Below, one piece after another: positions 5,973-28,448 of a stretch of 38,144 nucleotides of DNA. Each line of letters begins with the position of its first letter. The first letter of the stretch is position 1. Under the pieces are notes generated by a model. That model searched no databases. It was not told where the DNA came from and was given only the letters and a program-made list of their open reading frames with translations. The stretch is from the IMG/VR virus record IMGVR_UViG_3300050821_001316, positions 1 to 38,144 of that record. One strand, written 5' to 3'. A program made the position numbers and the translations under genes. This stretch comes from a virus.

Positions 5973-6421
5973 AACGCGGAGCGAAGTGGCGATCTTTGGG
6001 CGAGGGTCTGGAGCCGCGTCCTCCGCAACGTGTCTTCGGTATCCCCATTTTCTACAATCCGCAAAGCAAGCAACTAGCAGAGGCAAAAGGAATCTGGCCG
6101 TGGAAGCGCATCATTGTCGGTCCGGCGTGGTTCTCGCTCAACAGCGGCTCGCGCATGGCGGTGCTCATGCACGAAGCTAAGCATTGCCTCGCGTTCCACT
6201 TGGAGAAGCGGTTGCTGATGCTGCCCCTTTTCTGGACGACTTGGGTGCTCAAGGTGACGCATCGTCAGGAGATGGACGCCGATGCGTTTGCGGTCGAGCA
6301 GGGATACGGAGTAGAGTTGTTGGGAGTTATTCAGCGATTCCGGGTCGAGGACGGAGACTTTTATCCGACCTACGCGGAGCGCGCGAAACACCTGCGGGAG
6401 AGGATTCATGCGACTGCTTAA
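5969..6421 (+). CDS. M48-like HExxH metallopeptidase
   Basis: A 150-residue protein with a zinc-protease signature: HEAKH at residues 68-72, and downstream the EMDAD block at 101-105, matching the ExxxD glutamate-ligand motif of M48 peptidases. A hydrophobic stretch at 82-95 (LLMLPLFWTTWVLK) lies between them, as in membrane-associated or minimal M48-like domains. It overlaps the portal stop (ATGA). Both ligand sets are intact, so activity is plausible. Candidate roles are head-protein maturation, cell-envelope digestion on entry, or a host target; the sequence does not say which. It is shorter than cellular M48 enzymes. Confidence 0.7.
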   Translation: MKRGAKWRSLGEGLEPRPPQRVFGIPIFYNPQSKQLAEAKGIWPWKRIIVGPAWFSLNSGSRMAVLMHEAKHCLAFHLEKRLLMLPLFWTTWVLKVTHRQEMDADAFAVEQGYGVELLGVIQRFRVEDGDFYPTYAERAKHLRERIHATA

Positions 6422-6767
6422 GTACCTGACGCTCGGCGCGACGCGCGACGGGTCCACTGTATCTGCTTACCGCCGTCCGCTCGGATACTTTCAACTGACG
6501 CTGACCAGTTCAGCGTTGAAACTTACGCTTCCGACGCCGATCGCCAATTCCGGACTGTATCCGGGATACGCAATCATTCAATGCGCAGGAGCGGCGGCTA
6601 CAGACTTCGGATTGTGGCGTGATGATGGAACCGCGCCCGTGCTATCCGGAAACGTAGGCATGCGCCTGTTTAGCGGTCAGGAACTCGATTACTCGGGGGA
6701 CCTAACGATGATTCAGTGGATCATCGGCGCAGGTTCTCCAGTCTTGAATGTCAGCTTCTATGCATAA
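6408..6767 (+). CDS. Small virion-type protein with shared YLTLG N-terminus
   Basis: 119 residues starting MRLLKYLTLGATRDG, a tag shared with six other late proteins of this window. The body is Thr/Gly/Ser-rich and probably beta-sandwich-like, as in head decoration or fibre components. It overlaps the metallopeptidase gene by 14 bases and the next gene by 8. No enzymatic motif is seen. A structural role is inferred from the tag and location. Confidence 0.6.
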   Translation: MRLLKYLTLGATRDGSTVSAYRRPLGYFQLTLTSSALKLTLPTPIANSGLYPGYAIIQCAGAAATDFGLWRDDGTAPVLSGNVGMRLFSGQELDYSGDLTMIQWIIGAGSPVLNVSFYA

Positions 6768-7266
6768 CCTTTTAGCGCGTTTGTGGAGATACCTTTCGCT
6801 CGGTGTGATGGGCACGTTCACCGCGTTCGACACCACTACGTTGTGGGAGGCAGACGGCACTGATTCACTCAAGGCGGCCAACGCTTTCCAGATGGTGCTG
6901 ATCCAGTCTGGAGCTTCGCTTACCTCGTCAGGATTCCAGGTGTACGGAGACTTGACCAACGAAGTCGCCAATGGGCAGGGATACACCACTGGGGGCATTG
7001 TTTTAACCGGAGTAACGCTTACGCGATCGGTTGGAACGACGACGTTTGCGTTTACTGGGCCGTCTCCCGGGTGGACCGCTACCGGAACTGGCATTCCAGC
7101 TTGGCGCTGGATGGTGGTGTATGTAAACGCGACGCTGAACGGGCATGTCAAGCCGCTGATTGGTTTCGAGCTTGGAGATGCGACACCCGCCGACGTGCCG
7201 CTCACTCCTTCTGGTTCGACGATCACGATCACTGGTAGCCTGCTCACCATCACGCACACGCCATAG
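6760..7266 (+). CDS. Virion-type beta-rich protein with YLSLG N-terminus
   Basis: Using ATG 6760 gives 168 residues starting MHNLLARLWRYLSLG, another copy of the shared N-terminal tag. An in-frame ATG at 6748 would add MSAS and cannot be excluded, but the tag is normally at the very N-terminus. The rest alternates Thr/Gly/Val and looks beta-rich. The gene overlaps the preceding stop by 8 bases. Function unknown; likely a structural component. Confidence 0.6.
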   Translation: MHNLLARLWRYLSLGVMGTFTAFDTTTLWEADGTDSLKAANAFQMVLIQSGASLTSSGFQVYGDLTNEVANGQGYTTGGIVLTGVTLTRSVGTTTFAFTGPSPGWTATGTGIPAWRWMVVYVNATLNGHVKPLIGFELGDATPADVPLTPSGSTITITGSLLTITHTP

Positions 7267-7274
7267 GATAAAAC

Positions 7275-7832
7275 ATGCTTGGTTATTCATGGGCACTGAT
7301 GACCGCGCAGGTCGACGGACCCGCACTATCTGCAAGCACTACTCCGACATCCATCCTTCCGACGCAGGCGAAGTACACGTTGCCGGCTAATTTTCTGTCG
7401 ATAGGAACGACGCTTCGTTTTCGCGTCGCAGGGCGCATCTCGACGCTGACGGCGGCTCCCGGAACGCTGACGCTTGACATTCGGTTCGGCGCGGTAATCG
7501 TGGCGACGACGCCAGCGTTCGCGCTAAACGTGACCGCACAGACGAACGATGTGTGGATTCTCAACTGGGATCTGACATGCCGCGCAGTCGGTGGAGGAAC
7601 GTCGGCAAACTTCATGCACACTGGCCTGTGGACGACCGCAGCGGCTATCGGCGGCATCGCAGCCGCAACCGGCGGCACCGGATCGTTGCTCATTCCGTCA
7701 ACGGCTCCAGCGGTCGGCACTGGCTTCGATTCGACGGCAGCGCAGCAGATCGACCACTTCGGCACATGGTCCGTCAACAATGCGGCCAACAGCATCACGG
7801 TTCACCAGTTCTCAATCGATTCGATTAACTAA
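7275..7832 (+). CDS. Virion-type beta-sandwich protein (hypothetical)
   Basis: 185 residues starting MLGYSWALM, after a clear AGGA at the right spacing. Long Thr/Ala/Gly/Val-rich alternating strands with almost no Lys suggest a jelly-roll-like capsid or tail surface protein. The ending VHQFSIDSIN looks like a closing strand. No catalytic residues stand out. It lies in a run of small structural-type genes. Product name unknown. Confidence 0.6.
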   Translation: MLGYSWALMTAQVDGPALSASTTPTSILPTQAKYTLPANFLSIGTTLRFRVAGRISTLTAAPGTLTLDIRFGAVIVATTPAFALNVTAQTNDVWILNWDLTCRAVGGGTSANFMHTGLWTTAAAIGGIAAATGGTGSLLIPSTAPAVGTGFDSTAAQQIDHFGTWSVNNAANSITVHQFSIDSIN

Positions 7833-7835
7833 ATT

Positions 7836-8177
7836 GTGCACTTTGAGATCGAGCCTAATCAGTACGTCGTCCGTGTTTATGGCGACGACAAGGACAACTA
7901 CATTGCTTCGGCTCAGATTCGCAAATATGGCGACCGTGGATGGATGAGTTCCATTGTCGGCAAGGAGTTTTTCTTTGTACTGCGCGATCACTTTAATGAG
8001 ATTCTCGAACAGGTCGGTGTCGAGACGTTGGAAGGCTATGTGATGGACTCTATGGCGCGGTTGATGCGGTTGTCCTGTCGTGGGCGGGCCAAGTTCGAGA
8101 TTACTCATTACGGCATGTGCGCGGGGCGCAGGATGCCGTGGGTTGTGTTTTCCAAATTGGAAGGAGTTTCAAAATGA
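7836..8177 (+). CDS. Small alpha/beta protein, possibly GNAT-like
   Basis: 113 residues from GTG 7836, three bases after the previous stop. The alternation of strands (YVVRVYGDD, ASAQIRKYGDRGWMSSIV) and helices resembles a reduced acetyltransferase fold of the kind seen in T7-type internal virion protein A, but no clear acetyl-CoA loop is visible. This is a weak comparison. Its stop overlaps the next ATG (ATGA), and its last codons contain the next gene's AAGGAG ribosome site. Confidence 0.5.
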   Translation: MHFEIEPNQYVVRVYGDDKDNYIASAQIRKYGDRGWMSSIVGKEFFFVLRDHFNEILEQVGVETLEGYVMDSMARLMRLSCRGRAKFEITHYGMCAGRRMPWVVFSKLEGVSK

Positions 8178-8605
8178 AGACGTTAGTCCTTGCATTTTTG
8201 TTTGTGGTTGCCGGCGCGGTTTATGCCCAGCCATTCGACGAGAAGCTGTGCACAACCATAACCTTCAACGGTGCGCCGCACGCTGAGGGATGCGTCACGT
8301 ACTACGGTCTACAACTGTCGCCTGACCTTCAAGGCATTCGTGCCGAAGGAATATCTCAGGTTGGCGCTATCGGGAAGATCAAGCAGACGCCTGCCGGTCC
8401 ATTCAAGGTTACGCTGACGGAGACGACGACCGACAATGGAAAGACACCGCCCAGCGTGACCAACGGAGACGGTGGGACGTACTCGGTCGACATGAAGGGC
8501 CTGACCAAGATCATGCGAGCGCAGCACAAGTCTGCGGATCGGTTGCTCAAGGTTGCCGAGGGTCTAGCGAGCGGCGGGAAGAAAAAGGCATGGGGCAAGG
8601 ACTAA
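8174..8605 (+). CDS. Secreted protein with Sec signal peptide
   Basis: 143 residues with a classic signal peptide: MKTLVLAFLFVVAGAVYA, then a probable cleavage before QPF. The start has a strong AAGGAG (8161-8166). The mature part holds two Cys, C27 and C41, that could form a disulphide, a Gly/Thr-rich middle and a basic C-terminus ending in a GKKKAWGKD tail. Export to the periplasm is well supported; the role is not. Possibilities are exclusion, envelope remodelling or a lysis accessory. It sits, unusually, among virion genes and before the papain-like protein. Confidence 0.65.
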   Translation: MKTLVLAFLFVVAGAVYAQPFDEKLCTTITFNGAPHAEGCVTYYGLQLSPDLQGIRAEGISQVGAIGKIKQTPAGPFKVTLTETTTDNGKTPPSVTNGDGGTYSVDMKGLTKIMRAQHKSADRLLKVAEGLASGGKKKAWGKD

Positions 8606-8608
8606 TTT

Positions 8609-9616
8609 GTGAGCCTTCCCGTCTCCGTCGACTGGACGCCGACCTACCTTGCGAAGCTGCCTCCGCGCCCTTGGGGCGATCCTTTCGGCGACTGCGTGGC
8701 GGCTTCCATGTGCTACGCGATGGAACTGCGGGGCATTTTGCAGGGCTATCCGGCGGTGCGCTTATCGGAGCGGTTCCTGTTCGTCGTCGGAGAGTATCCA
8801 GTTGTTGCGGCGACAACTGGCGTTTGCTCGGAAGCGCTTTGGCCGATGGTTGTGCCGTCTGACTTCGGGAATGACTACGCGGCGTTCATGGCTGCTGTCA
8901 ATGCCACCCCGAGTCTCGCTGCGTATACGGACGCTCAAAATTACAAGCTGGTCGATTACGAGTATCCGATGGATTTCGGCTATCCGACGACCAGAGCCGG
9001 AATGATCGAGAAGGTGCAAACCTACATTGCCGCCGGGATTCCGCTCTGCGTGTTCTACCCGCCGAATCACGAAGTCGTTGCGTGGGGATACGACCAGAAC
9101 GGAGTGCTGGGGCTGGACAGTCGCAGCGCCAACCCGGGAACGTACAGCCTGAGTTACGACACGATCTTTACCGATTCGATCATGGCGATCAAGAGCGTGC
9201 TGTTCAAGGGCACCGCTTCGTTACCGCCACCCACAGGGAATACGCAAATGCTCATCGACACTATCGTGGCTGATGCCGGGGCGCTGGTCCTCGGAAAAGT
9301 AACGCAGGCGCAGATCGACAAGCTCAAAGCCGATGTCGGCTTGCTTGTTGCGGATGGCACTGCGCCGCCTACCACCGGCACGTCGCCAGACGGGACCATC
9401 ATCCCCCCGGCGGCCTCGATCACCGATGCATCCGGCGGCGTGTGGACGCTGGGAACCGTGATGCAGCCGTATGGTTATCCGGTGCTGCTCAACGGAGTTC
9501 AGGCAACGCAAGGGGGGCAGGCGATAAAATTGGCGTGGCAAGCCGGCGTCATCCGGGAGACGATCAGCACCGGCTCGACCCGTTACTGGGATGGCAAGCA
9601 ATGGGTCGTTGGTTGA
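8609..9616 (+). CDS. Papain-like cysteine peptidase fused to tail-type domain
   Basis: 335 residues with two parts. Residues 1-200 look like a papain-fold peptidase: FGDCVAAS puts candidate nucleophile C29 at a helix start, NHEVVAWGYD supplies H154, and GLDSRSANPG holds the possible Asn/Asp (D170 or N175). Residues about 235-258 form a short coiled coil (TQAQIDKLKADVG). Residues 275-335 look like a beta-rich tail module ending RYWDGKQWVVG. The GTG start follows AAGGAC by a usable distance. Likely a virion-associated hydrolase acting on the cell surface or on virion proteins; the substrate is unknown. Confidence 0.65.
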   Translation: MSLPVSVDWTPTYLAKLPPRPWGDPFGDCVAASMCYAMELRGILQGYPAVRLSERFLFVVGEYPVVAATTGVCSEALWPMVVPSDFGNDYAAFMAAVNATPSLAAYTDAQNYKLVDYEYPMDFGYPTTRAGMIEKVQTYIAAGIPLCVFYPPNHEVVAWGYDQNGVLGLDSRSANPGTYSLSYDTIFTDSIMAIKSVLFKGTASLPPPTGNTQMLIDTIVADAGALVLGKVTQAQIDKLKADVGLLVADGTAPPTTGTSPDGTIIPPAASITDASGGVWTLGTVMQPYGYPVLLNGVQATQGGQAIKLAWQAGVIRETISTGSTRYWDGKQWVVG

Positions 9617-9617
9617 C

Positions 9618-10076
9618 ATGTCACTGACGACTGCTCAGAACACGACGCTGCAAACCGACATCAACGCGCAGGGTTCGCTTGTGATTGCGAGGGCTGCGCA
9701 TGATGCTCCTGCGGTGGCGAATTTCTACAACGCGTTGAGCGCAACCGCGATCTGGCGCTCGGACTTGACGAATTCGCAAGTGGTCGCGGCTTGTGTGATG
9801 ACCGAGGTGGTTGCGCTTAACACGACCGCCGGCGCGCAGCTCGCATTTCAGACGCTCATTCATCCGCCGATCGTCGATGCGACAAGTGCGAATGTGCGCG
9901 CCGCGTTCAGTACGCTTTTTTCCGGCAAGACGACACTTACCAATCTGACCGCAGTGGCGCAGCGGCTTGGCACTCGCCTCGAAGTGTTGCTCGGCGCCGG
10001 TGGTCCTCCGGCGGTGTCGCAGGTATTCGGTTACCTGCTCCAGCCTGCCGACGTAGCGATAGCGATGGGCTGGTGA
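9618..10076 (+). CDS. Conserved phage tail-region protein (LTTAQ family)
   Basis: 152 residues from ATG 9618, one base after the previous stop; an in-frame upstream start at 9591 would lie inside the preceding gene. The start SLTTAQNTTLQTDI, the central IWRSDLTNSQV and the repeated helices match my memory of a helical protein often found beside phage tail genes. Its role is unknown. No membrane segment or catalytic motif is seen. Confidence 0.6.
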   Translation: MSLTTAQNTTLQTDINAQGSLVIARAAHDAPAVANFYNALSATAIWRSDLTNSQVVAACVMTEVVALNTTAGAQLAFQTLIHPPIVDATSANVRAAFSTLFSGKTTLTNLTAVAQRLGTRLEVLLGAGGPPAVSQVFGYLLQPADVAIAMGW

Positions 10077-12649: not shown

Positions 12650-13432
12650 ATGAAGCGACGCCTGCTCGCCCAGTACTTCGACCTCCCGGTAATCGGTTTC
12701 TCCCCCCTGCAAGTCGACGGCTCGGTGGTCGATGCGGGCAGCATGTTAGGCTTCGCGGCCCAGCTCGGGCAAAACGGCATGTCGTCGGTCGGAAGCACCA
12801 ACTTCGCCACTTCCGCCGCCACCACCATCACCCTCACCAGCCTCGGCAACCTGCTGCAACGCCTGACCGCCGGTAGCGCTTGCACGGTGACGATCGACTC
12901 GGCCTACAACATCGTCGCTACCATTCCGGGCGCGACCAATGGGCAATCGTTCCCGTTCATCATCGTCACCAACGCAAGCACCACGGTTGCAACGCCAACC
13001 CTGCTTGACACCAGCGTTACGCTCTCGGGAACGACCACGGTGCTTTCCGCCGCCGCCCGCTGGTATCGCGGACAAATCACCCAACTGACCAGTAGCACGG
13101 GGTCGGCGCTGACGGCGGGAACGACATTCACGTCGATCACCCAGGTCGGATCGAGCAACCTGTTCACGCTCGCTCTCGGCACCAACACCATCAGCCCGAC
13201 CGTGGGCAACCTGATTTATGTTGGCGTCACTGCTGGAACGCTGCCCCCTGGCTGGTATCCGATCACGACCGCCACCAGCGCGACCTCGATGGTCATTGCA
13301 ACGCCGTCCGGAACGACATGGACCGCGACCGCTGCGACGATGGTGCAGCCGGCGGTTGTCCCCGTGACCTATTCGCCGCTGCTCACAATCACCGGCCTGA
13401 TGGCGACCGTCACCGCGACGATGAGCGTGTAA
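12650..13432 (+). CDS. Beta-rich virion protein upstream of capsid genes
   Basis: 260 residues with an AAGGAG ribosome site and ATG at 12650. The start MKRRLLAQYFDLPVIG is a looser relative of the shared N-terminal tag. Most of the protein is Thr/Ser/Ala/Val-rich beta sequence with very few charged residues, typical of head decoration or fibre proteins. It is first after the internal promoter and two genes before the scaffold, so a head role is likely but unproven. Confidence 0.6.
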   Translation: MKRRLLAQYFDLPVIGFSPLQVDGSVVDAGSMLGFAAQLGQNGMSSVGSTNFATSAATTITLTSLGNLLQRLTAGSACTVTIDSAYNIVATIPGATNGQSFPFIIVTNASTTVATPTLLDTSVTLSGTTTVLSAAARWYRGQITQLTSSTGSALTAGTTFTSITQVGSSNLFTLALGTNTISPTVGNLIYVGVTAGTLPPGWYPITTATSATSMVIATPSGTTWTATAATMVQPAVVPVTYSPLLTITGLMATVTATMSV

Positions 13433-13435
13433 GCC

Positions 13436-13891
13436 ATGACCATCGCCAAAATTCCCGCCGGGGTGACAGCGGACCCCGCCGCGCTATTCGGACTTTTAGC
13501 GCTGATGTCGAACGTAAATGCCTACGCCGAGGGCTTGTCCACCATCGTTACCGCCGGAACGAACTCGACGCTGACGACCGCGCAATTGCTGTCCAAGAAC
13601 ATTGTCCTGACCTCGGGCGCGAGCGGCGGCTTCACCATCACGCTGCCGGCGACGTCGGCCATTATCTCCGCGCTCGGACCGACGATCCCGACTGACGGCA
13701 CGTTTTACTTCCCGCTATACATCAGCAATCAGGGCGTGGGACAGACGGGAACGCTGACGGCGGGCGACTCCAGCACGACGGTATCGGCGACCGAGGCCAC
13801 GCTGGCGACCAACGTAAGCGGGAAATGGATGGTTCAAGTAGCGACCGCGACCACGCTCGTCATCACCCGCGTATTCGCTGGAGACGCCTGA
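13436..13891 (+). CDS. Small decoration-like protein
   Basis: 151 residues, four bases after the previous gene. A helical first 30 residues is followed by Thr/Gly/Ala-rich beta sequence (TITLPATSA, FYFPLYISN, MVQVATATTLVITRVF), a pattern common in capsid decoration proteins. Its TGA overlaps the ATG of the scaffold gene. It contains no Cys or Trp cluster and no enzyme motif. The name is inferred from position and composition only. Confidence 0.55.
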   Translation: MTIAKIPAGVTADPAALFGLLALMSNVNAYAEGLSTIVTAGTNSTLTTAQLLSKNIVLTSGASGGFTITLPATSAIISALGPTIPTDGTFYFPLYISNQGVGQTGTLTAGDSSTTVSATEATLATNVSGKWMVQVATATTLVITRVFAGDA

Positions 13892-14643
13892 TGCTTGACC
13901 TCCTGCGGAAGTATCTGCATCTGGGGGCCGTCGAGGAAGACGATCCTCCGGAAGATCCGCCGGCAAACGAGAACGACGAGTCGCTTGAGGCTCTGCTGGG
14001 TGCTCCCGATCCGGAACCGCCGCCCGCCGACGACCCCGCCGCCGAACTGGCGCGCGAACGCAAGATCGCCAAAGAGGCGCGCGAGGAGCTGGAACGCGAG
14101 CGCGCATCCAGACGCCTTGAGGACGAAGCCAGGGCAAGGCTCCCGGCACGTCCGACCGTCGATTCCGAGTACGAGCGCGAGGAAGCGCAGCTCGCCGAGG
14201 CCCGCAAGGCCGGCCAAGACACCTCGATGCTGGAATGGACGATCAAGTCCAACCGCACCATCCGCGAGGTCAAGCGCGAGTCTCAGCAGGCCGTCCTAGA
14301 GGCAAGGGACACCAACGACCGCAACGATTTCGACCGGGTCAGGGACACCAACCCAAAGACCTACAAGGCATACAAGGATCGGGTCGAGGAATCGGTCAAC
14401 AAGTTTCGCAGCAACGGCCAGCAACCGCCGCCTCGGCGCGCGATCCTGGCCTTTTTCATAGGACAAGACGCCTTGGACGGGAAAATCAAGCCGAAGACGA
14501 GCAAGCCAGCGGAGCCGACGGCCACGCCGGGAACCAAGGTCGACCGTGGCAGAACGCCGGGGGCACGTAGCGACGTGTCGGCCAAAGGCACTTTGAACGA
14601 GAAGCAGAAACGCGCGGAACGCTTGCGCAATCAGTTTATTTAA
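13891..14643 (+). CDS. Capsid scaffolding protein
   Basis: 250 residues directly upstream of the major capsid gene, the usual place of a phage scaffold. The start MLDLLRKYLHLG is the shared N-terminal tag. Residues 13-60 are acidic and Pro-rich, about 55-165 are a charged helix/coiled coil (AREELERERASRRLEDEARA), and the C-terminus is basic and Pro/Lys-rich, ending KRAERLRNQFI, as expected for a capsid-binding tail. Scaffolds line the prohead and leave or are degraded before packaging. The ATG at 13891 overlaps the previous stop; upstream in-frame codons belong to the other gene. Confidence 0.8.
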   Translation: MLDLLRKYLHLGAVEEDDPPEDPPANENDESLEALLGAPDPEPPPADDPAAELARERKIAKEAREELERERASRRLEDEARARLPARPTVDSEYEREEAQLAEARKAGQDTSMLEWTIKSNRTIREVKRESQQAVLEARDTNDRNDFDRVRDTNPKTYKAYKDRVEESVNKFRSNGQQPPPRRAILAFFIGQDALDGKIKPKTSKPAEPTATPGTKVDRGRTPGARSDVSAKGTLNEKQKRAERLRNQFI

Positions 14644-14656: not shown

Positions 14657-16075
14657 ATGAACAAGCTGTTCCTCGCACTCTCATCGTTCTTGACCCTTGG
14701 GGCGGTGAACACTTCGACGTCGGATAACTTCCAGGCCGACATCGTCAACTACATTCAGGAGGAAGTGGAGCCGCTGGCTCGACGGCAACTCATCGCCTAC
14801 CAGTTCGGCAAGCCGCTTCACCTCGACGTCAATCGTGGCCTGACCTATACCGCGAGCCGTTTCCAGCGCCTGCCGCTGCCGTTCGCGCCGTTGCAGGAGG
14901 GTGTGGCCCCATCCGGCGAAGCAATGCAGGTGGTGCAGGTCTCGGCGACCGTGCAGCAGTGGGGCGATTCCGTCATCCTGACCGACGTTGCCAACATCAC
15001 CGTCTTTCACCCGCCGTTCCAGCAAGCCATCCAGCTCGTCAGTCTCCAGATGCCGGAAACGCTGGAGCGCAACACGCTCAATACGCTGGTCGCGGCGAAT
15101 CAGGTCAACTTCGCCAATGGACGCGCCAACCGCGCCGCGCTGGTCGCAACCGACGTCATGAGCCCGCACGAATCGAACAAGATATTTGCCTCGCTCGCGG
15201 CCTACGGTGCGCCAATGTTCAACGGCGACGAGCGCGAGGACATGATGATCGAAGCGGGTTCGTACCGCGATCCGTCGAAGTCACCCGCCGTGATGCAGCA
15301 CTATGTCGCCATGTGCAGCCCGTTCGTCGAGCAGGACATGCGGGAGAACTCGCAAGTCAATACCGCGTGGGCCTTCAGCGACATCAACCGCCTGTACAAC
15401 AACGAATTGGGCGCGTTCGGTGGGATGCGCTGGGTACGCACCAACATGATGCCGTATTGGGTGGGCGTAGCGCTCGTCAGCGGCACCGCGTCGACCAGCG
15501 GCGGCAATCTGGCGACCAGCGCGACCTACAACATCCAAGTGACCGGCTCGCCGTCGCAAACGTCGGTCGAGCAGCAAATCTATCAGGTGTCGGGCAGCAT
15601 TTCCGTCACCGGCCCGACCGGCTCGATCAGCGTAACCCTGCCGACCAAACCGGGGTACGTGTTCAACGTCTACATCGGCACGACCGCGAGCCCGACCAAC
15701 CTCGGCCTGACATCGAGCGGACCGCTGACCGGACCACTGGCCGGACAAGCAACGCAGCTTCCGTCGGGAGCCACGGTCATCATCACCGGCATCGGTGCGG
15801 CGCAGACTCCTCCTGCTGCCCCCGCAACCGGCGTTACAGTGTTCCCGACGATTTTTATCGGCAACCACTCCTACGGACAGGTCATTCTGGAGAACCCGGA
15901 GTTTTTCTACCTGACCGGGGCCGACAAGTCCGACCGCCTGAATCAGACGCGGGTAGTGTCGTGGAAGGTGTTTTACGGTTCGATCATCCTCAACCAAGCC
16001 TTCTTGGCTCGAACCGAATCGTCGAGCGCCTTTACCGTCGGCTACAGCGCCGGGACGATGGGCGACTTGACCTGA
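14657..16075 (+). CDS. Major capsid protein, N4-gp56 type, with Ig-like insertion
   Basis: 472 residues forming the head shell. The block LPLPFAPLQEGVAPSGE followed by VSATVQQWGDSVILTDVANI and a long helix (MPETLERNTLNTLVAANQV) matches the N4-gp56 capsid family. Residues about 271-395 are a Thr/Ser/Gly-rich insertion that reads as an Ig/FN3-like surface domain before the fold resumes at YGQVILENPEFFYLTG. The N-terminus MNKLFLALSSFLTLG carries a version of the shared tag, so the mature protein may be shorter. GGAG precedes the ATG. The scaffold lies immediately upstream. Confidence 0.85.
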   Translation: MNKLFLALSSFLTLGAVNTSTSDNFQADIVNYIQEEVEPLARRQLIAYQFGKPLHLDVNRGLTYTASRFQRLPLPFAPLQEGVAPSGEAMQVVQVSATVQQWGDSVILTDVANITVFHPPFQQAIQLVSLQMPETLERNTLNTLVAANQVNFANGRANRAALVATDVMSPHESNKIFASLAAYGAPMFNGDEREDMMIEAGSYRDPSKSPAVMQHYVAMCSPFVEQDMRENSQVNTAWAFSDINRLYNNELGAFGGMRWVRTNMMPYWVGVALVSGTASTSGGNLATSATYNIQVTGSPSQTSVEQQIYQVSGSISVTGPTGSISVTLPTKPGYVFNVYIGTTASPTNLGLTSSGPLTGPLAGQATQLPSGATVIITGIGAAQTPPAAPATGVTVFPTIFIGNHSYGQVILENPEFFYLTGADKSDRLNQTRVVSWKVFYGSIILNQAFLARTESSSAFTVGYSAGTMGDLT

Positions 16076-19661: not shown

Positions 19662-19831
19662 TCGACAAGAAGACGCGTCGCGCGGAACTTGAGGCATCCT
19701 TGGCGAAGGCCGAGGACTTGGTACGCACCACCCAGCAGCAGATACTTGTGCTGCGCGGCGGGATCACGATGCTGAACGAATTGATTACGGACGAGGAACA
19801 GGAGACGCAAAATGTTCAAACGACTGAGTAG
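19658..19831 (+). CDS. 57-aa coiled-coil mini-protein
   Basis: ATG 19658 overlaps the nozzle stop (ATGA) and the frame ends at 19831, 20 bases inside the next gene. The 57 residues are highly charged with a Leu/Ile heptad pattern (ELEASLAKAEDLVRTTQQQI, then LRGGITMLNELI) and a short acidic tail. Coupling on the left and the clean heptads support a real gene. A small assembly chaperone or fibre adaptor would fit; function is otherwise unknown. Confidence 0.6.
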   Translation: MIDKKTRRAELEASLAKAEDLVRTTQQQILVLRGGITMLNELITDEEQETQNVQTTE

Positions 19832-20660
19832 GTACTTCCACCTCGGCGTGATAGTCGGACCGCTGCCGAACAACATCGTCGACGGCACGATCATCGACGC
19901 AGTCCCGGTCATGGCAAACTTCAATTGGATCGTCAGTCAGGTCAACGCCAATGCTGCGGCTGGATCAAGCGCGAACTCGTTGAGCATCCCGACCTTCGTT
20001 CCTTCCGGCTCGGTTGGAGGCTCGGCAAACGCGATCACCCTGACGCCTAGCCCAGTCATTACCAGCTATGCCGCCGGGCAGCGCTTCAGCTTCCCCGCCG
20101 CATCGTCGAACACTGGCGCGACCACCATCGCGACCAATGGCCTAGCGGCTCGGAATCTGGTCTATGCCGATGGCACGGCAATGAGTGGTAGCGAGCTGCT
20201 GTCGACTGGCGTGTACGACATCGAGGACAACGGATCGGCCTATGTGCTGATGAACTCGGCGCAAGGGTCCAACATCATCAACTGGACGCCGACCGTCTCT
20301 TTCGGTGGTGCCAGCGTCGGCGTGACATACAGCACTCAGTCCGGCATCGCGTTCAAGGTCGGACGCATGGTCTTCTTCGCGTTCGCTGTCGTGCTCTCAA
20401 GCAAAGGTTCTTCCACCGGCCAAATGGCCATCGGTGGCTTGCCATACACGGTCAATGCCAACTGGCTCGGCAACAATGGCGGCCCGCTGTTTGCGGCTAA
20501 CGTGACCTTTGCGTCCGGCTATCTCATGGTGAATTTCGTTCTGAATACGACCCGCATGGGCATATTGAACGTCATCAGCGCCACCGGAGTAACTGCGCTG
20601 ACCGACACCGCTTTCGCCAACAACTCGACGATAGCGTCGTCAATGTTCTACGCCGTGTGA
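19812..20660 (+). CDS. Tail fibre-type protein with shared anchor
   Basis: 282 residues. The tag MFKRLSRYFHLG is followed by IVGPLPNNIVDGTIIDAVP and VMANFNWIVSQVNANA (residues 13-50), the virion-anchor module common at the N-terminus of phage tail fibres. The rest is Ser/Thr/Gly/Ala-rich beta sequence, probably a fibre shaft or tip. It overlaps the upstream mini-protein by 20 bases. The same anchor occurs in two more genes here, so several fibres may compete for, or share, one attachment site. The host receptor is unknown. Confidence 0.75.
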   Translation: MFKRLSRYFHLGVIVGPLPNNIVDGTIIDAVPVMANFNWIVSQVNANAAAGSSANSLSIPTFVPSGSVGGSANAITLTPSPVITSYAAGQRFSFPAASSNTGATTIATNGLAARNLVYADGTAMSGSELLSTGVYDIEDNGSAYVLMNSAQGSNIINWTPTVSFGGASVGVTYSTQSGIAFKVGRMVFFAFAVVLSSKGSSTGQMAIGGLPYTVNANWLGNNGGPLFAANVTFASGYLMVNFVLNTTRMGILNVISATGVTALTDTAFANNSTIASSMFYAV

Positions 20661-20663: not shown

Positions 20664-21860
20664 ATGCCGCTGAATCCGGCCTCTCCGAATCTAGGAACCG
20701 GACCCACTAATCAGCAGGGTCCGGCTCCCCAGACCGGGAGCACGACACCCACCGGGCAACTGATCGGCCCGCTGCCGGCGAGCACCATGCCGGGGCAGCT
20801 CGCGGAGACCATTCCGGTCATGGCGAATTTTCAGTTTCTGCTGAACGCCATCAACAACATCGTCGTCAATCCGCCTGGGGGCGGCGTCGGTCCGGCGGGT
20901 CCGCCCGGGCCACCGGGGCCGCAAGGTCCGCAGGGCACTCCCGGCACTGGCGGGGCGGTCAGCATAACGGCGGTGACGCCGATTGTCGTTACGCCGAGTC
21001 CAATCACCGGAACTGGCGTCGTCAGCCACGCCGCGAGCGGAGTCACCCCTGGTACTTACGGGGATGCCAGCCATTACCCGGTTGTGACGGTAGAGGCCGA
21101 TGGGCATACGACTGCCGTGTCGCTGCAAACTGTGTCGGCTGGTGGCGGACTGCTCAAGTCGCAGGAGTTCACATCGAGTGGAACGTGGACTCCGCCAGCT
21201 GGCGTGACCGGCGCGTGGATTACGATGGTCGGCGGCGGGGGCGGAGGGGCCACGCAAGCGTCGGCCTCCGGTGGTGGTGCTGGTGGGGCCGGCGAACTGG
21301 TAGAAAATATGCTGGTGCCGATCAGCGGCGCGGTCACGGTGACGATCGGTGCCGGCGGGGCGGGTGCGATTGCGGCGAGCGGTTCACTCCCCGGTGCGAA
21401 TGGCACCGATACGAGTTTTGGACCTTGGATCGCCAAGGCTGGCTTTGGTGGCGTCGTTTCGTCTCCGCGATCGTCTGGGGCCGGTGGTGGCGCACATGGC
21501 GCTCAAAGCACGGTCGGCAACGGACAGTTAGGCAATGCCGAGTCGCCCACCTATTTCGGTGGAAGTTCCGGCGGTGGTGGTGGCGACACGGCAAACGCTG
21601 GATTCATCGGCGGCGGCTCGGGGGGCTTTGTGATTGGCGGGGCTGGCGGTGCGCTGGTGACGGCTCAAGGTGGCGGCGGTGGTGGCGCAGGCACGCTCTG
21701 GGGCCCCGGCGGCGCTGGTGGCGATGGCGGGACCAGTGGACACAATGCGCCAGCAGGAAGCTACGGGGCCGGCGGCGGTGGCTCGGGCGGCATCACCGGA
21801 ACGACAGGCTCGGGCGGCAATGGGCTGTCCGGCTATGTCTTGGTCGGCTGGATCAGCTGA
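20664..21860 (+). CDS. Collagen-like, glycine-rich tail fibre / adhesin
   Basis: 398 residues, in order: a Pro/Gly/Thr-rich start; the anchor module QLIGPLPASTMPGQLAETIP then VMANFQFLLNAINN (about residues 33-66) without the YLTLG tag; a short collagen-like run with GPPGPPGPQGPQG (about 77-92); a beta segment; and from about residue 167 a glycine-rich adhesin domain beginning QEFTSSGTWTPPAGVTG with many GGGGG runs. Glycine-rich sandwich domains of this type are host-receptor adhesins in other phages. It starts three bases after the previous gene, and its stop overlaps the next ATG. Confidence 0.75.
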   Translation: MPLNPASPNLGTGPTNQQGPAPQTGSTTPTGQLIGPLPASTMPGQLAETIPVMANFQFLLNAINNIVVNPPGGGVGPAGPPGPPGPQGPQGTPGTGGAVSITAVTPIVVTPSPITGTGVVSHAASGVTPGTYGDASHYPVVTVEADGHTTAVSLQTVSAGGGLLKSQEFTSSGTWTPPAGVTGAWITMVGGGGGGATQASASGGGAGGAGELVENMLVPISGAVTVTIGAGGAGAIAASGSLPGANGTDTSFGPWIAKAGFGGVVSSPRSSGAGGGAHGAQSTVGNGQLGNAESPTYFGGSSGGGGGDTANAGFIGGGSGGFVIGGAGGALVTAQGGGGGGAGTLWGPGGAGGDGGTSGHNAPAGSYGAGGGGSGGITGTTGSGGNGLSGYVLVGWIS

Positions 21861-22678
21861 TGGGTTCGACATTGAAATGTCAGGAGTTCACGTCGAGTGG
21901 AACGTTCACTGTGCCGGCGGGGGTGTCTGGGGTCTGGGTGACCATGATCGGAGGCGGCGGCGGCGGCGGGTCTTATCTGCCGACCGGGACGCCTCCGACT
22001 CCCAACGGCGCTGGTGGCGGTGGGGCCGCCGAGTTTGTGCGCAACCGTCTTTTTCATGTGTCCGGTGGCATGACGGTGACCATCGGTGCGGGTGGCACGG
22101 TGACGCTTGGGGCAGCGACCGGCGGTCATGGAGGGATAACCTCGTTTGGCACCGCGCAGGCCGATGGCGGTTGGGGCGGGGTGGAATCGTCGCAGAATCC
22201 AACACACGTGCCGTATCACCCGGAGCTTCAGCCGGCGGTATCCGGCTCGAACCGTGGTGGTGATGGAGGCGGCTGTTACGATATTACTGGTGGTGGACTG
22301 CCGCAATTATTGGGGTCCGGCTACATGCCTGGAGTGATTAGTCCGTACACTGAAACGAACGGTTATCAAGGCGGCAGCAGCGGCGGTGCCGGTGGCGTCA
22401 ACTTCGCAGGTGGTCCGGGGGGAACGGCGGAATCGGTCCCCGGTGGCCCACATGGGCTAGGCGATCCGGGGAGCTTTGACGGCGGCGGCGGTGGCGGTGG
22501 CGCATCGCCGTGGGGCACTGGTGGCGCTGGCGGGGCGGGAGACTTCAACGGCCACGCTGCGGCTGGAACCGCCTATGGAGCAGGCGGCGGCGGTGCCGGG
22601 GGCAACCGGACGCTGTTGAACACAGTGGGTGGCGTCGGCATTGGCGGCTATTGCGTGGTATTTTGGTGCGGACCATAG
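21860..22678 (+). CDS. Glycine-rich adhesin, paralog of the previous domain
   Basis: 272 residues from ATG 21860, in a TGATG overlap. The frame is open far upstream, but that part is an Arg/Trp-rich shadow of the previous gene. The start QEFTSSGTFTVPAGVSGVWV matches the adhesin domain of the preceding protein almost residue for residue, and GGGGG runs follow throughout. It lacks the anchor and collagen parts. It probably arose by tandem duplication and may be a detachable tip, an alternative receptor-binding protein, or an adhesin loaded onto another fibre. Confidence 0.7.
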   Translation: MGSTLKCQEFTSSGTFTVPAGVSGVWVTMIGGGGGGGSYLPTGTPPTPNGAGGGGAAEFVRNRLFHVSGGMTVTIGAGGTVTLGAATGGHGGITSFGTAQADGGWGGVESSQNPTHVPYHPELQPAVSGSNRGGDGGGCYDITGGGLPQLLGSGYMPGVISPYTETNGYQGGSSGGAGGVNFAGGPGGTAESVPGGPHGLGDPGSFDGGGGGGGASPWGTGGAGGAGDFNGHAAAGTAYGAGGGGAGGNRTLLNTVGGVGIGGYCVVFWCGP

Positions 22679-22685: not shown

Positions 22686-23255
22686 ATGAGACGACTTCGA
22701 CAGTACCTCACGCTCGGCGCAATCATCGGCCCGCTGCCGGTTCAACTGCTGGACGGGCAGATCGCGGATGCAGTGCCCGTGATGGCGAATTTCAACTGGA
22801 TCGTTTCGCAAGTGAACGCGAACGCATCCGGTACGCCGGCATCCTTAACGGATATTCAGGTAACGAATACTGCTTCGCCAAGCCTTACCAACAACGTGAA
22901 CTATCCGATCGGTCAGGGCGGAACGGTGGTTAAGGACACGCTGGGCGAGTTTTCTACCGTGACGGGGATTTTCACGGCGACGGCGGCGGGCGTCTATCTG
23001 GTCAGCGCGATGGTCAACATCAATCAGAACGGGTGCACGTTCAGCTCGGCGCTTGCCCTGTCGCGCGTCGGCTCGTCGGTCAACTGTGCGCTCGGCGCGG
23101 TCATTTCGCCGGTCACCGTCACTCAGGCCGGAACGTGGGTCGAGTCGGTCACGCTGGCGGCGCTGGGAACGATCAATATGTACGTCAACGTGCCGTTTTC
23201 TGGCGGACCGGCTAAGATCGCGTTCGCACAACTGACGATTACTCGACTTCGATAG
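22686..23255 (+). CDS. Short tail fibre with shared anchor and C1q-like head
   Basis: 189 residues from ATG 22686, preceded by AGGAA; in-frame codons further upstream belong to the previous gene. The tag MRRLRQYLTLG is followed by the anchor module IIGPLPVQLLDGQIADAVP and VMANFNWIVSQVNANA. The C-terminal 120 residues (GIFTATAAGVYLVSAMVNI onwards) read like a C1q/TNF-type jelly roll, a trimerising receptor-binding fold. The anchor is very close to that of the gene at 19812. Confidence 0.7.
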   Translation: MRRLRQYLTLGAIIGPLPVQLLDGQIADAVPVMANFNWIVSQVNANASGTPASLTDIQVTNTASPSLTNNVNYPIGQGGTVVKDTLGEFSTVTGIFTATAAGVYLVSAMVNINQNGCTFSSALALSRVGSSVNCALGAVISPVTVTQAGTWVESVTLAALGTINMYVNVPFSGGPAKIAFAQLTITRLR

Positions 23256-23618: not shown

Positions 23619-24004
23619 TCGGTCGCAACAATCCGTTCGACCTTCGGTTTGTCGCCAGCATTCGCTGGGTCGGGCAGACTGGGCAGACGCGCGGATTCTG
23701 TGATTTTGCTACGCTCAACGATGGCGCTCGGGCAGGATGCATAGACCTCAAGAATGCGTGGCTCATCCACGGACTCAACACTGTCGCAACGATCATTCCC
23801 CACTACGCACCGCCGACCGAGAACGACACCGAGGCGTACATCGTCGACGTGTGCAAGGACATGGGAATTGCGCGGGACTATCCGTTACGCCTCGACGAAC
23901 AGTGGCCATTATTGGCCCTATCTGCTGCGGTCTGGCACCACGAACAGGGCCAAAGGGCGCTCGCCGCCCCTCTCTACTATGGCGTTGCAGCAGCCCTCGC
24001 TTAG
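23615..24004 (+). CDS. Putative endolysin (P5-like lytic enzyme family)
   Basis: 129 residues starting in an overlap with the membrane protein. NPFDLRF, then SIRWVGQTGQTRGFCDF, NDGARAG, then IIPHYAPPTENDTEAYI resembles a family of small phage proteins annotated as P5-like or lysozyme-like muralytic enzymes. The conserved elements are the WxGQ...GFCxF block and the YAPPxENDT block. I cannot assign the catalytic residue with certainty (E69 and D71 in ENDT are candidates). It has no signal sequence, so the holin candidate would be needed for export. Confidence 0.6.
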   Translation: MIGRNNPFDLRFVASIRWVGQTGQTRGFCDFATLNDGARAGCIDLKNAWLIHGLNTVATIIPHYAPPTENDTEAYIVDVCKDMGIARDYPLRLDEQWPLLALSAAVWHHEQGQRALAAPLYYGVAAALA

Positions 24005-25006: not shown

Positions 25007-25125
25007 AGCAAAAACTCCTGTGGACGCTGCTTCTCGTCAGCACGACCGTCGCCGCGCTGCCGCTGCTGCCGTGGATCACCAACGAAGGCCCGATCGGATT
25101 GGGACTTACATACTTAACTCCCTGA
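25003..25125 (+). CDS. 40-aa membrane / signal-anchor peptide
   Basis: ATG 25003 overlaps the lipoprotein stop (ATGA). The 40 residues start MKQKLLWTLLLVSTTVAALP, a hydrophobic helix after a basic N-terminus, which could be a signal anchor or a secreted peptide. The small C-terminal part is Gly/Pro-rich. Coupling and hydrophobic design support a real gene, perhaps a lysis regulator; this is inference. Confidence 0.55.
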   Translation: MKQKLLWTLLLVSTTVAALPLLPWITNEGPIGLGLTYLTP

Positions 25126-25141
25126 CAACAAGGAGTAGACA

Positions 25142-25486
25142 ATGAGCCGATATGATTTTTGCTGGAACGAGCGCGAGCATGAAGATCAGGCTCGCCGCGA
25201 TGCTCGCTGGGGCCATCGCGACTACGATATGTACGACAGATGGGCCGACGATCCGTGCAAGGCAGTCTATACGGAGGAATACGACCGCGAACGCCGAGCC
25301 ATCGAGCGTCGGCAAGAGGAACGTGAAGAGGAACAGCGCGCTCAAGAGCGACAGGCGCTGGCACGATCTGAGCGAGAGGCCGAAGAGGCGGACTACAACG
25401 CCCAATATCTCGCGCAGATGGAACGCCACTATTACGAACAGCAACAGCAGCAATACCCGGAACCACAAGAGCCGGAGTCACGGTGA
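25142..25486 (+). CDS. Glu/Arg-rich helical protein
   Basis: 114 residues with AAGGAG just upstream. The N-terminal 40 residues are aromatic and acidic (MSRYDFCWNEREHEDQARR) and include two Cys. From about residue 45 to 95 Glu and Arg dominate with no Gly or Pro, the signature of a single stable alpha helix. The tail is Gln/Tyr/Pro-rich. Similar small proteins starting SRYDFCWNER seem common in phage genomes, with no known function. Its TGA overlaps a GTG that starts a 23-residue ORF. Confidence 0.65.
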   Translation: MSRYDFCWNEREHEDQARRDARWGHRDYDMYDRWADDPCKAVYTEEYDRERRAIERRQEEREEEQRAQERQALARSEREAEEADYNAQYLAQMERHYYEQQQQQYPEPQEPESR

Positions 25487-25554
25487 CCGAGGTAGTCATA
25501 TATATAAATCCCATTGGATTCATGTGCCAGTACCTGCTGTGGCTGTGCGTATGA
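25483..25554 (+). CDS. 23-aa hydrophobic micro-ORF
   Basis: GTG 25483 lies in a GTGA overlap with the preceding stop, and its own TGA overlaps the next ATG. The 23 residues (VVIYINPIGF then CQYLLWLCV) are almost entirely hydrophobic and could span a membrane. It is too short for normal gene callers. Support comes only from the coupling on both sides and the membrane-like composition. Confidence 0.4.
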   Translation: MTEVVIYINPIGFMCQYLLWLCV

Positions 25555-25613
25555 CCGCCGACGAGCTGCTCGATCTGATGTGGCTGGGCTACGAGGTCGT
25601 CTGGAACAAATGA
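25551..25613 (+). CDS. 20-aa micro-ORF
   Basis: ATG 25551 overlaps the stop of the 23-residue ORF (ATGA), and its own stop overlaps the next ATG at 25610. The product starts MTADELLDLM and has amphipathic character with four aromatic residues. It may be a leader whose main job is to couple translation to the next gene, or a micropeptide. No sequence test of function is possible here. Confidence 0.4.
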   Translation: MTADELLDLMWLGYEVVWNK

Positions 25614-26362
25614 ACGTCCTGATCGCTGACGTCCACGTCGCGCTGATGAACGAGAGTACGGTTGTCTCGGACGCCGACGTCATCGCCGCGATCAACGGGC
25701 TGGAGACGCAGGTGCATCGAGACTTCGCGCCCGTGTGGGGAATCAATGCGAACCTTGGGTTCGTACCCAAGGGGACTGCACCGGAGCCTGGATGGTGGTG
25801 GCTGACGATCCTCGACGATTCGGATCAGGCTGGGGCGCTCGGATACCATGATTTAACAGATACCGGTCTGCCTCTCGGCAAGGTGTTCGCCAAGACGGCG
25901 CAGCAGAACGGCATCTCATGGACCAGCACCGCGAGTCACGAACTGCTCGAAATGCTGGCCGACCCTGAAATCAATCTGTCGGTGTTCGTGCAGTCGAGCA
26001 ATACGGTTGGCGTGCTGTACGCCTACGAGACGTGCGACGCCTGCGAGAACGACAGCTACATCATCGACACGATAGACGTTTCAGATTTTGTCTATCCGGC
26101 GTGGTTTCAGCCATCGCTTCCGACCGGGACGCAATTGGACTACATGAAACTTATCACGCAGCCGTTGCAATTGCTCGCGGGCGGCTACATCGGCATATAC
26201 AACGTTACCAGCGGTTCCGGGTGGCAGCAGATCACCGCCGACAAGTCTCCCGCCGCGATGTACAAGGCCCGCGCCCCGGTGGGCAGTCGGCGCGAGCGAA
26301 GGAAAATTCCACGCGACCAGTGGATGCGCAGCAAAATACAAAGGACCGGCCATGCAATTTGA
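25610..26362 (+). CDS. Putative metalloprotease-like protein (SHELLEML motif)
   Basis: 250 residues from ATG 25610 (ATGA overlap); upstream codons in the same frame belong to the micro-ORF region. The centre reads TASHELLEMLADPE (residues 107-120), where H110 and E111 resemble an HExxH start, but the second His is Glu (HELLE). Downstream AYETCDACENDSY offers acidic and Cys ligands. I recall a phage/bacterial family with the same (A)SHExLExLADP signature, function unknown. A zinc-dependent hydrolase is a fair hypothesis. The C-terminus is basic (RRERRKIPRDQW). Confidence 0.5.
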   Translation: MNVLIADVHVALMNESTVVSDADVIAAINGLETQVHRDFAPVWGINANLGFVPKGTAPEPGWWWLTILDDSDQAGALGYHDLTDTGLPLGKVFAKTAQQNGISWTSTASHELLEMLADPEINLSVFVQSSNTVGVLYAYETCDACENDSYIIDTIDVSDFVYPAWFQPSLPTGTQLDYMKLITQPLQLLAGGYIGIYNVTSGSGWQQITADKSPAAMYKARAPVGSRRERRKIPRDQWMRSKIQRTGHAI

Positions 26363-26537
26363 AATTGTCGTAACGCTGGAGGCACCCGGTCTCATCGAGG
26401 TGTTGACAGCGATCAATGGAAACATCGCCGCACTCGTCGCGCAGGGTAGTCAGGATGCGATCGAGGAATCTGCGGCAAAAAGTATCAGTCAAGCAACTGC
26501 TTCACTGACATCTGCAATTCCGGCAAAAGCCGGCTAA
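26352..26537 (+). CDS. 61-aa Ala/Ser-rich small protein
   Basis: 61 residues with AAAGGA upstream, overlapping the previous gene by 11 bases. A short strand (FEIVVTLEAPG) is followed by helical Ala/Ile/Ser sequence ending ATASLTSAIPAKAG. The C-terminal half resembles that of the next gene (ATASLTAALPTPA), suggesting a small paralogous pair. No function is recognised. Confidence 0.55.
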   Translation: MQFEIVVTLEAPGLIEVLTAINGNIAALVAQGSQDAIEESAAKSISQATASLTSAIPAKAG

Positions 26538-26552
26538 CACAAGGAGAAACAC

Positions 26553-26834
26553 ATGGGACAAGGTTCACAGGATCTGCAAACCGCAGTCACCGCACTGCAA
26601 GCGGCTGTAGCGCTGGCCGTGACGTTCATCCAGGCAGTACCGGCGTCCACCGCTGCGGCAGTCGCAGCGCAGGCTTCGGGCGACGACGCGGCGGCTGAAG
26701 CCGTATCGAAGACCGTTGCGGCGGCGACCGCTTCTCTGACGGCAGCGTTGCCGACCCCGGCGGTTCCGGTTCCTCCGCCTGCGGCTGTTGCTGCGGCGAA
26801 GGCTGCCATCGCCAAGATGGCTGCATTGCGGTAA
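26553..26834 (+). CDS. 93-aa Ala-rich helical protein
   Basis: 93 residues with AAGGAG and a good spacer. Nearly all Ala/Val/Thr/Gln in amphipathic helices, broken by PTPAVPVPPPAA near the C-terminus. Small Ala-rich proteins like this are frequent beside phage tail genes, with unknown roles. It shares the QGSQD and ATASLT segments with the previous gene. It has no clear transmembrane helix. Confidence 0.6.
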   Translation: MGQGSQDLQTAVTALQAAVALAVTFIQAVPASTAAAVAAQASGDDAAAEAVSKTVAAATASLTAALPTPAVPVPPPAAVAAAKAAIAKMAALR

Positions 26835-26845
26835 GAAACACCAGC

Positions 26846-27394
26846 ATGGCCTCTCGGGTGTCCGTCGAAAGGAAGTTTTTTGACTCGCACCCGGGAGTTC
26901 CTTTCGATGAGGCGTGGCACAAGCCGACCGTCGTAACGGTGCCCAAGTTTGCGGTCGAGCAATACATGGACGTGCTGCCCGAACTGCGCTTGCTCCTACC
27001 CGAGCACTGGGCAGAAATCGCGCTGGACAAGGGAACGATCGCGCTGTCGCCGGACTATGCGACCTATGAGGCGATGGCGAAGGCTGGCATCCTGCACCTC
27101 GTCACCGCGCGCATCGTGGACGAGCTGGTCGGATACCACCTCTCGATGATCCGCGCGCACCTTCACTACAAGGCGAGCCTGACGTGCTTCACCGATGTCT
27201 TCTACCTCAAGCCAGAGCATCGCAAGGGCATGACCGGCTATCGAATGCTCAAGTTCTTCCGCGACAGCGTGAAGGAACGCGGGGTGCAAAAGGTCTACAT
27301 GGGCACCAAGCTCGCGCACGACATCGGGCCGGTGCTCGAACGACTCGGGTTCAAGCCGATCGAGCGCCTATATACTCAGGTGTTCGATGAATAG
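26846..27394 (+). CDS. GNAT-family acyltransferase-like internal virion protein
   Basis: 182 residues reading as a GNAT fold: strand-rich centre (ILHLVTARIVDELVGYHLSM), then LTCFTDVFYLKPEHRKGMTGYRMLKFF, where EHRKGMTGYRML sits where the acetyl-CoA loop (Q/RxxGxG/A) normally lies, and a C-terminal PVLERLGFKPIERLY, a typical GNAT ending. Such domains occur in short-tailed phages as internal virion proteins, and the next three genes look like ejection proteins, which supports that role. Acyl transfer to a host or phage target is the alternative. Catalysis cannot be judged. Confidence 0.65.
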   Translation: MASRVSVERKFFDSHPGVPFDEAWHKPTVVTVPKFAVEQYMDVLPELRLLLPEHWAEIALDKGTIALSPDYATYEAMAKAGILHLVTARIVDELVGYHLSMIRAHLHYKASLTCFTDVFYLKPEHRKGMTGYRMLKFFRDSVKERGVQKVYMGTKLAHDIGPVLERLGFKPIERLYTQVFDE

Positions 27395-28448
27395 GCTTCG
27401 CTTATACCTCACGCTTGGACTGGGCACCGTAGGCTCGATCATCGGCATCGCCTCGGGGGCAAACAGCCTGCTAGGTGGCGGCGGGGGCGCTCCGGGGACC
27501 GGCGGGGGCGCGAGCAGCACCTATCAGCCGGGAGGGCAGCCGCAAGCCGACCAAGGATGGCAGGGGCTCCTCCAGCAGTTCCTTGGCGGCCAGGGCGGCG
27601 AGTCGGGAGCGATCCAGCCGCAGATCGCGCAGGCGTTCCAGCAGTTGCTCGGAATCCCTACATCTGGCGTCTCTCAGGCTGGGCAGCAGGCCGGTCAGCA
27701 ATACGGCGGATTGTCGCAGCTCGCCCAACAGTACCAGCAGCAGATGCAGGGTCAGGCCGGCGTCAACCAGGGTGCGCAGCAAAACCTGATGAACGCCGGC
27801 AACCAGCTCTGGCAAACCGCGCAAGACCCGCAGCAGCAGCTCCAGCAGCAGCTCCAGCAACAGGTCACGGATTCATCGCGCGCGAACGCTTCGGCGGCTG
27901 GTTTAGGCACCAGCGCGCAAGGTGTCGGAACCGAGAATCAGGCGATGCAAAACTTTCTCCTAAATTGGCAGAACCAACAGCTCGGCAGACAAGCGACCGG
28001 CTTGCAGGGCATGGCCGGCGCGTACCAAGGAGCCGGCCAGCAGGGGCAGCAGGCGGGGCAGAACCTCGCCGGCTCGATGGCCTTCGGGGCTATGCAGCCG
28101 CAATACACGCTCCAGCAGGGCAACGTACCGTTCCAGCAGGCCCAGATGGCGGCGGGCGCTCCATTTGGGTACGCGAACCAGTACAGCGGGGCGGAGGGCG
28201 CGCTGTTGCAGCAGATGATGGGCGGCATGGGCGCGATCGACCCCTATCTCGGACTCGGCCAGAGCGCGAGCCAAGCTGGATTCGGCCAGCAGCAGACCGG
28301 ACTCAACAACCTGACGACCGGCTTGGGGCAGTTCGGCAATCAGATGAACAATCCCGGATCGTGGTTGAGCCAGCTTTTCAGCGGCGGCGGCCAACAAGCT
28401 AGCCAACAGCCGGGTGACGTTTTCGGCGGGAATTGGGGGCCGGTGTAA
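27387..28448 (+). CDS. Gln/Gly-rich internal (ejection) protein with YLTLG tag
   Basis: 353 residues overlapping the previous gene by 8 bases. The tag MNRLRLYLTLG is followed by a Gly/Ala/Ile membrane-active stretch (LGTVGSIIGIASGANSLLGG). The rest is exceptionally Gln/Gly/Ala-rich with long helical repeats (QQLQQQLQQQV). These are features of pore- or tube-forming ejection proteins that are packed in the head and injected with the DNA. No enzyme domain is visible. The stop TAA overlaps the next ATG. Confidence 0.65.
   Translation: MNRLRLYLTLGLGTVGSIIGIASGANSLLGGGGGAPGTGGGASSTYQPGGQPQADQGWQGLLQQFLGGQGGESGAIQPQIAQAFQQLLGIPTSGVSQAGQQAGQQYGGLSQLAQQYQQQMQGQAGVNQGAQQNLMNAGNQLWQTAQDPQQQLQQQLQQQVTDSSRANASAAGLGTSAQGVGTENQAMQNFLLNWQNQQLGRQATGLQGMAGAYQGAGQQGQQAGQNLAGSMAFGAMQPQYTLQQGNVPFQQAQMAAGAPFGYANQYSGAEGALLQQMMGGMGAIDPYLGLGQSASQAGFGQQQTGLNNLTTGLGQFGNQMNNPGSWLSQLFSGGGQQASQQPGDVFGGNWGPV

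Follow-up and report, generated by a model that had tools for sequence, protein, structure and literature searches.

The window analysed here, a stretch of 38,144 bases from one virus record (IMG/VR), contains a series of genes for mostly structural proteins that begin with the same short peptide, referred to below as the leader or tag, together with a gene for a predicted zinc metalloprotease of the M48 type (Table 1). Genes (52 in all) and their starts were called with a simple purpose-built program, no established caller being used. All seven tagged N-termini that the original prediction had listed were found where it placed them, each on a plus-strand gene, and in a six-frame translation of the window the pattern [YF][LFIMV][TSHKRDNQEA]LG matches these seven gene starts only. 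The looser pattern [YF][LFIMV]xLG gives seven matches within the first 22 residues of the called genes and one internal match. When the N-terminal 30 residues were shuffled (2000 runs), the mean number of tags was 0.19 and the maximum 2; the seven copies are therefore not a product of chance.

Table 1. Candidate leader peptidase and tagged N-termini in the window
Feature	Position	Strand	Remarks
Minimal M48-type zinc metalloprotease (predicted), 150 aa, candidate leader peptidase	5969..6421	+	directly 3' of portal gene
Leader MRLLKYLTLG, 6408-6767 protein (119 aa family)	6408..6437	+	tagged orthologues in L003 (MKWLLLKFLRLG) and L006 (MKRLRDFLHLG)
Leader MHNLLARLWRYLSLG, 6760-7266 protein	6760..6804	+	alternative in-frame start at 6748
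Leader MKRRLLAQYFDLP, 12650-13432 protein (clade-specific family)	12650..12688	+	clean tags on orthologues
Leader MLDLLRKYLHLG, scaffold-like protein 13891-14643	13891..13926	+	leader in protease-bearing, not in protease-less relatives
Leader MNKLFLALSSFLTLG, major capsid protein 14657-16075	14657..14701	+	leaderless relatives have M-A-T-N where the window has A-V-N
Leader MFKRLSRYFHLG, fibre-like protein 19812-20660	19812..19847	+	leaderless homologues begin M-[A/S/P/T]-IIGxLP
Leader MRRLRQYLTLG, fibre-like protein 22686-23255	22686..22718	+	
Leader MNRLRLYLTLG, 27387-28448 protein (ejection-type by position)	27387..27419	+	

The looser eighth copy, MKRRLLAQYFDLP-V at 12650, is shown to be real by its orthologues, whose tags are clean (MKLNKIAASVRNYLSLG-V in relative L003, MKQKKLAALLSSFFSLG-V in L016). 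Orthologues of the 27387 protein begin with MRFLRGYLRLG (L004), MNIVQRLRAFLTLP (L029) or ...LLAYFCPG (L173), and no orthologue of the 6760-7266 protein was found in 35 near-complete loci of relatives. The protein encoded at 13436-13891 (+) is untagged in the window and tagged in several orthologues, for example MLKRLVKFLSLG in L003 and MLKRLLRFLQLP in L029, so that individual tags can be lost. The major capsid protein was assigned by its match to PHROG 1357, ‘major head protein’ (1.6e-33); its AlphaFold model was of low confidence (57) and was not used. For the tagged proteins in general, virion membership is deduced from gene identity and position. Outside the tag most of them are unrelated, as had been claimed, except that the fibres at 19812 and 22686 have about 35 further residues in common and are, on sequence grounds, paralogues over this stretch. 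The leaders are basic. Scaffold- and fibre-type tags are strongly amphipathic, with a mean moment of about 0.57 (random N-termini, 0.30) and a net charge of about +2, whereas capsid leaders are more hydrophobic (mean 0.43) with a basic start, these means being approximate given the rough pattern by which the scaffold set was extracted.

A search with the major capsid protein yielded 80 viral loci, and further loci came from an alignment-based search, among them Paraburkholderia prophages from named genomes such as those of P. tropica LMG 22274 and P. phenoliruptrix LMG 22037 (loci L171, L172). The carriers are a family of phages of soil bacteria. Many loci are fragments, and the key counts below rest on those that hold the portal sequence. 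The families tagged in the relatives correspond to those of the window, namely the major capsid protein, the scaffold, the fibres and the families of the 6408, 12650, 13436 and 27387 genes. Across the 56 de-replicated loci of the leader clade, an N-terminal tag was counted on 131 of 1147 same-strand genes, as against 2 of 355 genes on the opposite strand, which are mostly non-virion; the corresponding figures in the leaderless group (13 loci) are 3/220 and 0/76. Orthologues from many related phages thus bear the tag, non-virion genes rarely do, and the original prediction survives on both points. Its motif ending in LG is valid for the window and too narrow for the family, in which the penultimate leader residue (P2) is L or P, the last one (P1) is G, A, P, R or Q, and the residue that follows is V, I or A.

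At the tag residues shared within a genome, codons are identical in 0.419 of cases, compared with 0.399 expected from genome codon usage. Because codon choice at these positions matches genome codon usage, it is the peptide and not the DNA that is selected, as had been supposed, and a conserved DNA signal or recent gene conversion is excluded as the main cause. The end of the leader varies between genomes, yet it agrees across unrelated proteins inside one genome. While the window uses LG, six families of L023 share the type xP[RQA] (AFLFPR, SYLFPQ, DFLSPR, RFLYPA, AFVWPR, DYLFPA), six families of L029 have changed to LP-like ends (the set being AFLTLP, AFLTLP, NFLQLP, RFLQLP and EFLTLP, plus RFLALS and AFLALC), L039 has RPA, L063 TRG/CRG and the Paraburkholderia prophages FPG. 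The mean cross-family tag similarity within genomes is 10.5 vs 4.8 when genomes are permuted (0/1000 permutations reach 10.5), where non-capsid motif ends were chosen by a scoring rule favouring L/P plus G, a bias equal in the observed and permuted sets. With permutation confined to each of the two major leader types, the value is 7.1 (maximum 8.07), and again none of 1000 reaches 10.5. Part of the similarity reflects common descent. In the capsid tree, however, L023 lies within a group of LG-type genomes, and its six proteins have therefore changed together. Such concerted change is the pattern predicted for one shared trans-acting reader, and implies a putative single recogniser of the tags in each genome.

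The best candidate for this recogniser is the product of the gene next to the portal gene. By sequence and modelled fold it is a member of M48 and a predicted metalloprotease. The HExxH, ExxxD and YP/HPxxxxR motifs are invariant among 26 diverged orthologues, as are H68, E69, H72, E101 and D105, the E of ExxxD being the third zinc ligand. Pfam Peptidase_M48 (PF01435) is matched by 25 of the 26 orthologues (best 1.8e-9); the window protein taken alone scores 15.3 bits, below the cut-off of 20.3. A profile search of solved structures (PDB) retrieved Ste24p at 4e-8. The structure predicted for the product has a mean predicted local distance difference test score (pLDDT) of 93, and its top Foldseek matches are ZMPSTE24 and Ste24p (probability 1.00, E about 2e-3). 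Single-sequence patterns confirmed no close relatives of the enzyme in viral contigs, and annotated phage genomes gave no match. In several orthologues, for example those of L004, L024 and L075, a long hydrophobic insert of about 30 residues lies between HExxH and the third ligand; it resembles a membrane hairpin and suggests that these enzymes may contact the membrane.

The distribution of this gene follows that of the leader. Of the 88 loci in which both portal and capsid sequence are present, the protease is encoded in 72 and missing from 16; the capsid proteins of the former carry the leader, and those of the latter start with M-A-T-N or similar, save that of L071. The scaffold has the leader in protease-bearing genomes with a readable scaffold start, with weaker motifs in L040, L050 and L128, and has none at its start in protease-less loci. 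In near-complete loci, the M48 gene is present in 28/28 leader-bearing and 0/7 leaderless ones, the only one of the 52 window genes to behave in this way; the 12650 family comes next (26/28 and 0/7). A search of ten leaderless viral records with the Pfam M48 model found nothing, the model being insensitive enough to miss the known copy in G008 as well, and in leaderless G021 the stretch from portal to scaffold contains no gene of protease size. In a tree of the capsid body computed without the leader columns, the protease-bearing rows form one side of a single branch (98 in the Shimodaira–Hasegawa-like approximate likelihood ratio test, SH-aLRT). The co-occurrence is therefore one event, and the association is weaker than the counts make it look. 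In annotated N4-gp56-like outgroups (Page, Y3 and Manatee Spring phages), the capsid proteins read had no leader and no M48 match was obtained, consistent with the leaderless state being the probable older one.

Leaderless relatives also indicate where a cut might fall. In the capsid protein, leader-LG/PG-[V/A]-[T/V]-N corresponds to M-[A]-T-N of leaderless phages, and in the fibre leader-LG-[V/A]-IIGPLP corresponds to M-[A/S/P/T]-IIGTLP. In these two unrelated families, leaderless homologues thus begin where removal of the leader through G would put the new N-terminus, and so removal would leave an equivalent N-terminus. We infer cleavage after LG or PG, with V, I or A as the next residue; this P1' residue is similar to the hydrophobic one reported to be favoured by ZMPSTE24 (PMC7948416). 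The earlier suggestion that a peptidase of the same operon cuts after LG has gained strong circumstantial support, in that the M48 gene, directly 3' of the portal gene, tracks the leaders exactly.

We therefore favour, with a probability of about 0.6, a cleavable assembly leader that acts through one phage-encoded partner, most likely the M48 metalloprotease. The leader would be a short, positively charged, amphipathic to hydrophobic N-terminus that the phage partner reads as a peptide. Borne by the precursors of the capsid, scaffold and other particle proteins, it would gather these and accessory proteins in a single location; the inner membrane is a plausible one, and the protease may be found there as well. 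The enzyme would then cut after LG (in relatives PG, PA or LP), just before V, I or A, which would yield the mature N-terminus and free the structure to mature.

Several points weigh against this interpretation. Cleavage is inferred from the N-termini of homologues, and a leader and a protease acquired in one event could simply have hitchhiked together. Fibres would be unusual targets for a protease that acts in head assembly, and they are untagged in many protease-bearing relatives. L071 (G024) has neither the protease nor a scaffold leader, yet its capsid protein, at 9399, has a 35-residue extension. The fibre of the same phage, at 23839, has a signal-peptide-like leader, MTKLLTVFAALLMSFAASAA-T, with the same junction; the two are possibly another route to the same end. 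An association between enzyme strand residues (KR before the edge strand) and leader type (FP or other) was post hoc and not significant: up to two of three independent pairs agree and none oppose, too few to mean anything in a comparison chosen after looking. Finally, the cut could lie elsewhere, e.g., after an aromatic residue. Prelamin A is cleaved at TRSY/LLGN, and by analogy a cut after the aromatic residue is possible in LG-type tags and not attractive in FPG types.

The alternative that fares best is that the leader stays on as a docking or membrane-binding helix, with the portal, the scaffold lattice or the membrane as common partner, and that the role of the M48 enzyme is unrelated. 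A helix of this kind would agree with the amphipathicity and charge of the scaffold- and fibre-type tags, a common partner would suffice for concerted evolution, and cleavage is putative. Nonetheless, we regard it as unlikely, given that precisely one gene, encoding M48, tracks the leaders and that leaderless homologues of two unrelated families start exactly at the proposed cut point. It is improbable, furthermore, that the host reads the leader as a signal (signal recognition particle, YidC or Sec-like) that directs structural proteins to the inner membrane, the M48 protein being a dedicated peptidase or quality-control factor. The fibre and scaffold tags, at 10–13 charged residues, are too short for a Sec signal; the leaders end in LG, PG, LP or PA before V, I or A instead of showing the n-h-c structure with an A-x-A site; and a genome-specific end motif points to a phage-encoded reader, not a shared host one. 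These observations count for more than the basic start and hydrophobicity of the capsid leaders, the hydrophobic insert of some M48 orthologues and the classical signal-peptide-like leader on the fibre of protease-less L071, which all lean towards a host signal, as does the assembly of T4 and SPN3US proheads on the inner membrane, which those of SPN3US do not leave until proteolysis has taken place (PMC9026906). A DNA-level element (promoter, translation signal or recombination site) or recent gene-conversion copies can be practically dismissed although some copies are about 70% identical in DNA over 29–32 nt, as synonymous codons at shared residues differ as much as random codon-usage draws, which also led to the rejection of a T7-like promoter under the tag, and the motif occurs in frame and at gene starts only.

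Other features of the window deserve mention. The gene at 8609-9616 (+) encodes a papain-like GDCVAAS stretch with a sub-cut-off Pfam match and has no orthologue in any relative; as a leader protease it was rejected because it is present only in the window. An 86-base repeat of 77% identity (21162-21966) is common to the glycine-rich fibre-like genes 20664 and 21860 and suggests a recent duplication. Inside the late operon, 31709-33055 (+) encodes an ATP-grasp protein similar to PurD (GARS_A 4.7e-7, GARS_C 2.9e-6), of which 15/28 leader-bearing and 2/7 leaderless relatives have a homologue. A C5 cytosine DNA methyltransferase (PF00145, 1.7e-44) is encoded at 33892-34731 (-). The record ends at 37876-38144 in a tandem 9-base repeat of the GAGGGCGTC/GCGGGCGGC type, with LDARAARAA repeats in a minus-strand open reading frame.

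Returning to the cleavable leader, a bolder formulation, for which the odds are in our view slightly below even, is an assembly code built on a single phage protease. In it, the minimal Ste24-like enzyme and the leaders specific to each genome, co-evolving as a set, would select shell, scaffold, internal and fibre proteins for particle assembly at the membrane, and one cut would mature them. The variation of leader ends from genome to genome is a natural experiment on protease specificity, and the leader, if portable, could also be used to load proteins into phage particles or to mature them there. Cultured Paraburkholderia prophages make the system testable.

That prohead proteases remove leaders is textbook knowledge, so far tied to serine-type enzymes that act inside the head. 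In T4, the capsid-targeting sequence (CTS) is a short N-terminus common to head proteins, of which the first 10 residues suffice in IPIII; it directs internal proteins to the prohead and is removed by gp21 (PMC9026906). The window shares with it the occurrence of one short N-terminal peptide on several otherwise different virion or prohead proteins and a phage protease, by which removal would take place here. The differences are substantial: the only protease that tracks the leaders is a putative M48 zinc metalloprotease, whereas gp21 is of the herpes type; hydrophobic-x-[LP]-G, followed by V, I or A, closes the leader, whereas the gp21-type site is acidic; the tags extend to the major capsid protein, the scaffold and the fibres; and the end motif shifts genome by genome in concert. 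The original analogy with the CTS thus fits in logic and fails for the protease, which is no relative of gp21, and for the fibre tags, which have no T4 parallel; the leader system is not a member of the CTS/gp21 system. In SPN3US and phiKZ, one protease, gp245, removes N-terminal propeptides from many head proteins; those of SPN3US are mostly 111–254 residues long and differ between proteins (PMC10052503; PMC9026906). The putative propeptides of the window and its relatives are 10–25 residues long and alike, and the protease class is different. With Ste24p and ZMPSTE24, the phage enzyme shares the fold, HExxH plus ExxxD and HP-R type motifs; at 108–184 aa it does not have the seven-helix membrane chamber, and its presumed substrates are phage structural proteins. 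A published M48 prohead or assembly protease was not found in the open-access literature searched, and if the proposed role is correct, this would be the first one known to us. The presence of the M48 gene in leader-bearing phages and its absence from leaderless relatives suggest a previously undescribed particle-building system, in which the logic of prohead leader removal was seemingly invented a second time, on the basis of an M48 metalloprotease and a portable leader of very few residues that shell, scaffold and fibre proteins have in common.

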